Origin: an uncultured Sulfolobales archaeon
GTDB lineage: Archaea > Thermoproteota > Thermoprotei_A > Sulfolobales > NBVN01
Length of the DNA: 44,003 bases
Direction: 5' to 3'
NCBI GenBank assembly: GCA_938045815.1
Contig: CALIBI010000045.1
Coordinates: 1-44,003, forward strand
How positions within the stretch are numbered: position 1 is the first letter of the stretch; each line of letters opens with the position of its first letter. This document shows, piece after piece, positions 20,773-24,705 of this stretch. The notes beneath the pieces are model-generated. The model saw only the letters and a program-made list of their open reading frames with translations, searched no databases and was not told the origin of the DNA. The position numbers and the translations under genes are program-made.

Positions 20773-21351
20773 TTGAGTGTGGAGGAAGTGATTAGGTTAG
20801 TTATAGGATTAATAATAGTTTCACTTTTCTTAATTTCAGTTGTTGCTGGATTCCACGCATCACAGCAGCTAGGTCTTTTAATAAGAGAAATTCTTAGAGA
20901 GCAGTTTAGTCCTCTAACAAGCTACTTCAATACTTCAGACCCTATGTCACTTCTCTTACTAAGCTTAACTATATTCGCTAACAATATGAGGGTGGCGCTA
21001 CTAAACATAATCTTAGGTGTTTCTTTAGTAGGTCCTGCAGGAATTATGGTAGTTAATGGGTTCATAATAGGCTTGGTTCTCTCTATTCAGGAGGATATTG
21101 TTAGTGGGGTCTTAGTCATAATTCCTCACGGAATCTTAGAGATCCCAGCACTAATCTATTCTGCAGTCCTGGGAACACACCTAGGACTAACAATACTAAC
21201 GAATATACGCAGGAACCCATCAAAGATTAGGGAAGTGTTTAGGGACGTAATACGTAAGATACCGGTAATAGTCTTAATGCTTATTCTTGCGGCGCTAATA
21301 GAGGTTTTCGTTAGCTTATTAATAGTAGCCCCGCTCGTCGGAGGTTCTTGA
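20773..21351 (+). CDS. SpoIIM-like (DUF95) membrane protein
   Basis: 192-residue integral membrane protein with about five helices. The FANNMRVALLNIILG segment, the GPAGIMVVNGFIIG turn and LVIIPHGILEIPALI are characteristic of the stage II sporulation protein M family, which is common in non-sporulating archaea and of unknown function there. TTTAAAAT near 20756 is placed so that transcription begins at or next to TTG 20773, so the mRNA is probably leaderless. It is divergent from the Lhr gene. Confidence 0.85.
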   Translation: MSVEEVIRLVIGLIIVSLFLISVVAGFHASQQLGLLIREILREQFSPLTSYFNTSDPMSLLLLSLTIFANNMRVALLNIILGVSLVGPAGIMVVNGFIIGLVLSIQEDIVSGVLVIIPHGILEIPALIYSAVLGTHLGLTILTNIRRNPSKIREVFRDVIRKIPVIVLMLILAALIEVFVSLLIVAPLVGGS

Positions 21352-22891: not shown

Positions 22892-23206
22892 CTACGTGTA
22901 GTAGAGTTTGCAGAAAAAGCACATTACTTCATCTACCTTAACTTCATTTCTGATTATCTTCTGCGTGTATTCTCTTATGTACGTAGCGTACACAGAATCC
23001 TCCAGAAGTTTCTTAACTAACTTCTTGTTTGATCTCCTCTCAGCTAAGTAGTTAGAGACTGCTGCCGGAGCTACGCCAAGCAACTTAGCCGCCCTATAAA
23101 CACTTAGGCTGTACTCTCTAACCATAGTTATAGCTAGAGCTGCTCTAACTGCTGGCATTAACTCCTTCGTAGCTACCTCACATCGCGGGGAACTCAAACT
23201 ACTCAC
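22892..23206 (-). CDS. HTH transcriptional regulator with CX2C tail
   Basis: 104-residue archaeal regulator. The helix-turn-helix is YSLSVYRAAKLLGVAPAAVSNYLAERRSN (about 32-60), close to the COG2522-type predicted regulators, which also begin with a CEV segment and a LMPAVRAAL helix. The tail has CFFC, so one Cys from the N-terminus plus this pair could bind metal or sense redox. A 50-residue CX3C protein is encoded 31 bp upstream in the same direction and probably shares its promoter. Confidence 0.78.
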   Translation of the reverse strand: MSSLSSPRCEVATKELMPAVRAALAITMVREYSLSVYRAAKLLGVAPAAVSNYLAERRSNKKLVKKLLEDSVYATYIREYTQKIIRNEVKVDEVMCFFCKLYYT

Positions 23207-23237
23207 TAAGTGTTGTTTATATGAACATTATTAAATA

Positions 23238-23390
23238 TTAACGGCGTGAAAGTTGTAGAATTTCCTTAACACACGACTCAACGCATTCTCTGAACTCTTC
23301 GTTAGTCCTGAAAGAGTATTCTGAGCATTTCTCTCTACAGAAACTTACTGCGTGAGTTCTTGCTCTACTATCTACGAATTCCTCACTCAT
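23238..23390 (-). CDS. 50-residue twin CX3C protein
   Basis: Small open frame from ATG 23390 to TAA 23238-23240, preceded by an AGGTG ribosome-binding site. The sequence has CREKC and CVESC separated by 13 residues, giving CX3C-X13-CX3C in two predicted helices, like the helical hairpin of small disulfide or metal-binding proteins such as the mitochondrial Tim and Cox17 families. Homology to these is not claimed; the pattern may be convergent. It lies directly before the HTH regulator gene and divergent from dnaG. It is probably a real gene because of the ribosome-binding site, the charged helix texture and the fit between the two neighbours. Confidence 0.65.
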   Translation of the reverse strand: MSEEFVDSRARTHAVSFCREKCSEYSFRTNEEFRECVESCVKEILQLSRR

Positions 23391-23438
23391 TTGATGCACC
23401 TAAACACGTTTATCGTGCTTATTATTGGTTTTAACTAG

Positions 23439-23448
23439 TTTATATTTA
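23439..23448 (+). promoter_or_regulatory. TATA box of dnaG
   Basis: TTTATATTTA is about 30 bp before GTG 23476 and lies downstream of an alternative ORF start at 23425, which it therefore rules out. Confidence 0.6.
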
Positions 23449-23475
23449 GTGACGCTTAACTCAGGTGATGCTGTA

Positions 23476-24705
23476 GTGAAGTATGTGGTTAGAGCGAGGA
23501 TAGAGGTTGCTGGTGTCGTAGAGAAGCCAGATATTATTGGTGCTATCTTTGGCCAGACAGAAGGTCTGTTTAGTCCTGAATACGACTTAAGAGAACTTCA
23601 AGATAAGGGCAGGATAGGCAGGATAACTGTTGATGTCAAGCAATCTGATAGCAAGACTATCGGGGAAATAATAATACCCTCAAACCTCGATAAAGTTGAG
23701 ACAGCTTTAATAGCGGCTCTAATAGAAACCGTTGATAGGGTTGGGCCCTACGCAACCAAGATTAAGGTAGTAGAGATAGTTGACTTGAGGCAGGAGAAGC
23801 TAAAGAAAGTGATAGAGAGAGCTAAAGAAATACTTAGAGACATAATGCAGGAGAGAACTATAGACGTTAAAGAAGTCCTAGCACAGATTAGCGAGGCTGT
23901 GAAAGTAGGTGAGATTATCGAGTACGGGCCTGAGAAACTGCCTGCGGGTCCTGAAGTAGAGACTTCAGATACCCTCATAGTTGTTGAGGGGAGAGCAGAC
24001 GTAATAAATCTTCTTAAGTACGGCTACAAGAACGTGATAGCTGTTGAGGGAGCTAAGGGCGAGATTCCGAAAACTCTCATCAACCTAGCTAACAGTAAGA
24101 AGAAAGTCATAGTGTTTGTTGACGGGGATCGTGTAGGTGCTATGATAGTCAAAAACCTAGCTAATGTGATTAGGGTGGACGCGGTAGCTAGAGCTCCTAG
24201 CGGACGCGAGGTCGAGGAACTCACGAACAAGGAAATCCAGAAAGCACTAAAGAACGCGGTTCCCTTACAAACTTTCCTGCAATCACTAGCAGCTGAAGTC
24301 ATGCCCACTAAGATAACTGCTACTGAGGCTGAAATAACTGAAGCAACAACTATTCAAGTTCCCGAGGCTGAGGCTGTCCCCAAAACTGTTGAGATCTTGG
24401 AGACTTACATGATACCTAACAAAGTTCTTGAAGCAATAAATAGCTTGAAAGGATCGCTAGAAGCTATCTTGTACGACGAGAACTGGAACGAGATAAATAG
24501 AATACCTGTGAAAGATTTAGTCGACTATATATTAACTACTGAAAAGCCCGTTTACGCGGTAATCATGGATGGCATCGCCACACCCAGACTAATTGATGCA
24601 GCAGCAGTCAAGAACGTGAAGTTCGTGCTGTGTTATAGGGTAGCTACTATAACAAAGAAGCCTGCAGACCTAATTATCTTGACTTTTGACGAGCTACTTC
24701 AGTAG
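23476..24705 (+). CDS. dnaG: Archaeal DnaG-like Toprim protein
   Basis: 409-residue archaeal DnaG homologue. Starting at GTG 23476 gives MKYVVRARIEV, the family's normal N-terminus. IIGAIFGQTEGLFS and LRELQDKGRIGRI follow. The Toprim domain is visible as LIVVEGRADVINLLKYG and VIVFVDGDRVG. The C-terminal third has no named domain. In crenarchaea DnaG has weak primase activity and also associates with the RNA exosome, so its role may be in replication, RNA turnover or both. It converges with polB, with stop codons 11 bases apart. Confidence 0.94.
   Translation: MKYVVRARIEVAGVVEKPDIIGAIFGQTEGLFSPEYDLRELQDKGRIGRITVDVKQSDSKTIGEIIIPSNLDKVETALIAALIETVDRVGPYATKIKVVEIVDLRQEKLKKVIERAKEILRDIMQERTIDVKEVLAQISEAVKVGEIIEYGPEKLPAGPEVETSDTLIVVEGRADVINLLKYGYKNVIAVEGAKGEIPKTLINLANSKKKVIVFVDGDRVGAMIVKNLANVIRVDAVARAPSGREVEELTNKEIQKALKNAVPLQTFLQSLAAEVMPTKITATEAEITEATTIQVPEAEAVPKTVEILETYMIPNKVLEAINSLKGSLEAILYDENWNEINRIPVKDLVDYILTTEKPVYAVIMDGIATPRLIDAAAVKNVKFVLCYRVATITKKPADLIILTFDELLQ

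Follow-up and report, generated by a model that had tools for sequence, protein, structure and literature searches.

A 50-codon gene in a 44,003-nucleotide stretch of DNA from an uncultured Sulfolobales archaeon (hereafter the window) encodes a member of a real, conserved and uncharacterised protein family with a twin CX3C motif. Our reading of this mini-protein as a whole, to which we attach roughly even confidence, is that of a cytosolic helical hairpin stapled by disulfides and tied, in the clade of the window, to a thiol-type HTH regulator.

The mini-protein gene and its conservation

The original prediction placed an overlooked 50-residue protein at the correct coordinates but left its strand unstated. 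The frame is read from the minus strand, where its product is MSEEFVDSRARTHAVSFCREKCSEYSFRTNEEFRECVESCVKEILQLSRR followed by a stop, with the motif CREKC-X13-CVESC, or CX3C-X13-CX3C (Table 1). A plus-strand reading of the same interval was rejected, plus frame 1 being interrupted by stops. The Shine-Dalgarno-like sequence ahead of the start fits the proposal that the gene has its own ribosome-binding site, and GGTG likewise precedes the start of the gene in two congeners.

Table 1 Features of the window, and the related six-cysteine gene elsewhere in the same genome
Feature	Coordinates	Strand	Remarks
Twin-CX3C mini-protein gene	23238..23390	(-)	50 codons and stop; Cys18, Cys22, Cys36, Cys40; His13 and Arg19 invariant
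HTH regulator gene	22892..23206	(-)	31 nt downstream of the mini-protein gene, same strand; N-terminal Cys, C-terminal CX2C
Shine-Dalgarno-like AGGTG	23397..23401	(-)	Followed after 6 nt by the ATG (23390); read from the sequence
Intergenic stretch between the divergent mini-protein gene and dnaG	23391..23475	.	Relatives with the same divergent layout
dnaG (archaeal DnaG)	23476..24705	(+)	NF003108 match; divergent neighbour
Twin-CX3CX3C family, copy of the window genome	G000:C59:10333-10452 (L161)		Family loci L157-L176

That the overlooked frame is a real gene follows from purifying selection, from orthologues in congeners and from strong matches in 55 genomes. The orthologues of two congeners are 86% and 80% identical to the window protein. 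Comparison with the orthologue of the congener G002 gave a dN of 0.08 and a dS of 1.22, and comparison with a second congener (G004) gave a dN of 0.20 with dS near saturation; the gene is under strong purifying selection. In whole-genome searches covering 214 genomes of the order, strong matches (E about 1e-15 or better) came from 55, namely 29 of the 31 genomes of the window's own family (f1), 16 genomes of f2, 4 of f3, 2 of f4 and 4 of f5. When 398 genomes were drawn from the phylum, those outside the order yielded only matches taken as noise (E 0.002-0.01), and a tblastn search of viral contigs found zero relatives. Among named genomes, a narrow alignment scan detected relatives under the labels Sulfolobales, Desulfurococcales, Pyrodictiaceae and Thermoprotei or Thermoproteota archaeon, while a scan with the single protein detected zero. 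Searches of Pfam, NCBIfam and PHROGs gave nothing over cut-off and nothing convincing, a Nucleolin_bd match (E 0.061) being taken as chance, and a sequence search of solved structures gave nothing significant. Literature on "twin CX3C" and archaea, in the portions available, concerns mitochondria or plants.

All four cysteines, His13 and Arg19 (H-x4-C-R) are invariant in the 54 aligned rows of the family, position 20 is always Asp or Glu, and an acidic residue accounts for 98% by weight at position 24. Because the rows had been cut to an H-x4-C-x3-C pattern and the searches give weight to cysteine, cysteine loss may be under-counted and homologues that had lost cysteine may be missed. Synteny serves as an independent check: 14 of 14 loci whose open reading frame is flanked by dnaG and an intact HTH gene have the four cysteines. 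Lack of conservation of these residues in related genomes had been set beforehand as grounds for refuting the prediction; since every member found keeps all four, that refutation fails.

Predicted fold and likeness to known hairpins

Structure prediction, proposed at the outset as a check for a helical hairpin, returned one. The AlphaFold2 model, built from the window protein and 13 relatives, has predicted helices at residues 3-23 and 30-49, with a mean pLDDT of 80.6, block means of 85-94 over residues 11 to 40 and a pTM of only 0.59.

The likeness to the twin-CX3C hairpins of mitochondria held as a pattern and fell short of family membership. In common with the small Tims, the mini-protein family has a twin CX3C motif with four conserved cysteines, a predicted helix-loop-helix, small size and a profile likeness that goes beyond cysteine spacing. 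The Pfam model matched by most members was zf-Tim10_DDP (PF02953), with 8 of 41 members matching (best E 0.0091) against 0 of 41 shuffles in which the cysteines were fixed (one shuffle for each member). A Foldseek search of the PDB gave 27 weak matches with Tim9 and Tim10 chains among them (TMq 0.61-0.73, E 4-8; none significant). The profile matches and the Tim chains speak for a true homologue of the mitochondrial small Tim proteins, which we nevertheless consider extremely improbable. Members do not reach the PF02953 gathering threshold of 22.3 bits, a search of six host genomes with the Tim10 model at E<=10 found nothing, the fold matches are non-significant, the searches recovered the family from one archaeal order alone, and a pin of two helices and four cysteines is easily reached by convergence. 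Small Tims have two intramolecular disulfides and form a hexameric chaperone; the mini-protein, known here from sequence and a model, differs in being archaeal, presumably cytosolic and marked by the invariant H-x4-C-R. As the likeness is sub-threshold, membership of the small Tims is not claimed, and we take the resemblance as a shared hairpin character, possibly convergent.

Plant alpha-hairpinins also bear four cysteines on a helix-loop-helix (PMC11591084). These are secreted plant defence peptides, whereas the mini-protein was found in one archaeal order only and shows no evident signal peptide by eye.

Disulfides versus metal

The register of the predicted hairpin (22+36 = 18+40 = 58) suits nested rungs of cysteines. 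An additional pair at -7/+8 in f4, counted from the first and fourth cysteines, fits this register too (11+48 = 59). Third pairs of this kind occur in four lineages and at three spacings, near the open end of the hairpin: -12/+8 in f5 and part of f2, -7/+8 in f4, and -15/+7 in one genus of f2. Extra cysteines flank the motif on both sides in 13 rows and on a single side in 6, and the other 35 rows have none (Fisher p about 1e-7, uncorrected for shared ancestry); in part of the one-sided cases the residue perhaps precedes the true start. These genomes also encode a second small family, with a twin CX3CX3C pattern, and all six cysteines are present in 19 of 19 extracted sequences, the filter having required two CX3C and one of the 20 loci having yielded no sequence. 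This second family occurs in most f1 genomes, with strong matches in three f10 genomes and weaker ones in f7.

Small Tims bind zinc when reduced and contain two disulfides when oxidised (PMC3759932), and both chemical states are therefore possible for a twin-CX3C motif. The mini-protein might accordingly be a metal-binding hairpin, serving as a sensor or carrier, in which the four cysteines, possibly together with the invariant histidine, hold Zn(II), Cu(I) or an Fe-S cluster. The binding of zinc by reduced Tim9 and Tim10 through the same twin CX3C, the invariance of His13 and the near invariance of two acidic positions are in keeping with such a site, and the six-cysteine family could likewise hold a cluster. 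We regard this alternative as unlikely. If helix 1 is given ideal angles, His13 falls with Glu20 and Glu24 on a face roughly opposite that of Cys18 and Cys22 and so points away from these cysteines, and the extra cysteine pairs, about two or more turns off, are too far for one site. Genes for metal transport or cluster assembly were not recognised among the mini-protein neighbours that were read, the annotation of these being unsystematic. Because the extra cysteines come as spaced pairs, disulfides are more likely than a metal site; the third pairs and the twin-CX3CX3C family speak for nested disulfide staples rather than for one site that binds metal.

Cytosolic disulfides are unusual in most organisms. 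Their presence in thermophilic archaea has been described (PMC3177088). The gene for protein disulfide oxidoreductase (PDO), the disulfide enzyme of the cytosol, was present in 12 of 12 hosts examined, and among 118 good-quality genomes of the order 117 have it.

Genomic neighbours and the link to PDO

The predicted spacing of 31 bp to the HTH gene is exact (positions 23207-23237, ending at the GTG start of the HTH gene), and this regulator does carry the CX2C tail ascribed to it, its C-terminus being MCFFCKLYYT. Aligned rows of the HTH family share the N-terminal cysteine and the C-terminal CX2C wherever they are intact (row L078 is truncated). The window HTH protein has weak Cro/HTH_3-like Pfam matches; its family was guessed to be COG2522, and a literature search under that name found nothing. 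Elsewhere in the window, positions 20773-21351 matched the stage II sporulation protein M model (TIGR02831) below threshold, scoring 26.7 bits where the cut-off is 100.2.

Of the 214 genomes of the order, 154 contain HTH relatives. A scripted comparison of coordinates placed 56 HTH genes within 2 kb of a PDO gene, 52 of them divergent from it, and the divergent cases come from 52 genomes of six other families (f3, f5, f6, f7, f8 and f10). In the tree, the window HTH falls inside a 24-row set with PDO-linked regulators and apart from other paralogues, with modest support (81/80). The PDO genes of G000, G001, G002, G005 and G018 had no HTH gene within roughly 2 kb on either side. These comparisons suggest that the window HTH is a regulator plausibly sensing thiols and that its relatives appear to govern PDO.

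A comparable arrangement has been described in Thermococcales, where surR and pdo are neighbouring divergent genes, SurR contains a CxxC redox switch and the SurR regulon includes pdo (PMC12162507). The HTH relatives of six families, but not the window itself, share with this system a CxxC regulator gene divergent from a PDO gene. The site itself differs in position, lying in the N-terminal winged helix of SurR (PMC12162507) and at the C-terminus of the window HTH. Six archaeal families thus show a tie between this thiol-type regulator family and the PDO gene, which offers a testable parallel to SurR-Pdo. We know of no counterpart of the mini-protein in the SurR-Pdo system.

Adjacency of the mini-protein and HTH genes is confined to six genera of f1, and thus to part of one family; there the HTH gene follows directly downstream, and the gap is 31-64 nt in 13 of the 14 intact pairs and 127 nt in the other. 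Families f2, f3 and f5, like genus g8, have the mini-protein gene away from HTH and among other neighbours, and these differing neighbours mean that no partner is fixed across the mini-protein family. In f5 (L120-L124) and in one f1 genus, g4 (L103), the mini-protein gene stands near a gene judged by its sequence to be aldehyde ferredoxin oxidoreductase-like. Co-occurrence with the HTH gene, proposed as a check, therefore holds as adjacency in six f1 genera, while the HTH family extends far more widely and the mini-protein occurs elsewhere in unrelated contexts.

Such pairs bear on a direct two-protein redox switch, in which the mini-protein would bind the HTH protein and relay its thiol state to the CX2C tail. 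The same-strand pairing at short gaps, the conserved cysteines of both proteins and the PDO link of the HTH relatives all agree with this model. We hold it to be quite unlikely, given the wide occurrence of the HTH family in the absence of the mini-protein and the position of the mini-protein away from HTH in g8, f2, f3 and f5. The proposal of a redox or metal switch formed by the two proteins is thus retained as a link to a plausible thiol regulator, the redox element being partly supported because the window HTH groups with regulators divergent from PDO; it is not retained as a general statement of a joint switch, and of its two chemistries metal is the less likely.

The divergent neighbour on the other side raises a role in replication, with the mini-protein as a small partner of DnaG or of a B-family polymerase. 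One or both of dnaG and polB adjoin the gene in much of f1 and in one f4 genome, and small polymerase subunits are described in Sulfolobus (PMC5418573). Against this, the mini-protein gene is divergent from dnaG, and the stretches fetched from g8, f2, f3 and f5 lack dnaG and polB. We rejected this role, which we rate as very improbable, because the context of the mini-protein gene changes between lineages; dnaG is not thought to be part of the mini-protein system.

Proposed role and significance

In the explanation that we favour, the mini-protein would be a cytosolic pin of two helices stapled by nested disulfides, an inner staple joining Cys22 to Cys36 and an outer one joining Cys18 to Cys40, with a third rung near the open end in some lineages. 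The staples would be made by the PDO system of the cell and would hold up helix 1, whose opposite face, with His13, Asp/Glu20 and Asp/Glu24 and with Arg19 beside them, is the likely partner-binding surface. In part of f1 the gene probably shares a transcript with that of a thiol-type HTH regulator, the relatives of which seem to control PDO, and for this reason the mini-protein is most likely a component of a disulfide or thiol response rather than of DNA replication.

A more speculative extension, which we consider improbable, is an archaeal cytosolic disulfide-hairpin system in which PDO would oxidise, the cysteine-bearing HTH regulator would adjust, and the two stapled families, twin-CX3C and twin-CX3CX3C, would act as binding modules resembling the small Tims. 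If true, such a system would be a non-mitochondrial analogue of the oxidation-dependent hairpin chaperones. The mini-proteins themselves constitute a family of unannotated and very small archaeal proteins, presumably cytosolic, with the signature of a disulfide ladder. The window protein comes from a hot-spring archaeon, and its minimal size opens its redox state, metal content and partner to direct tests by standard biochemistry.
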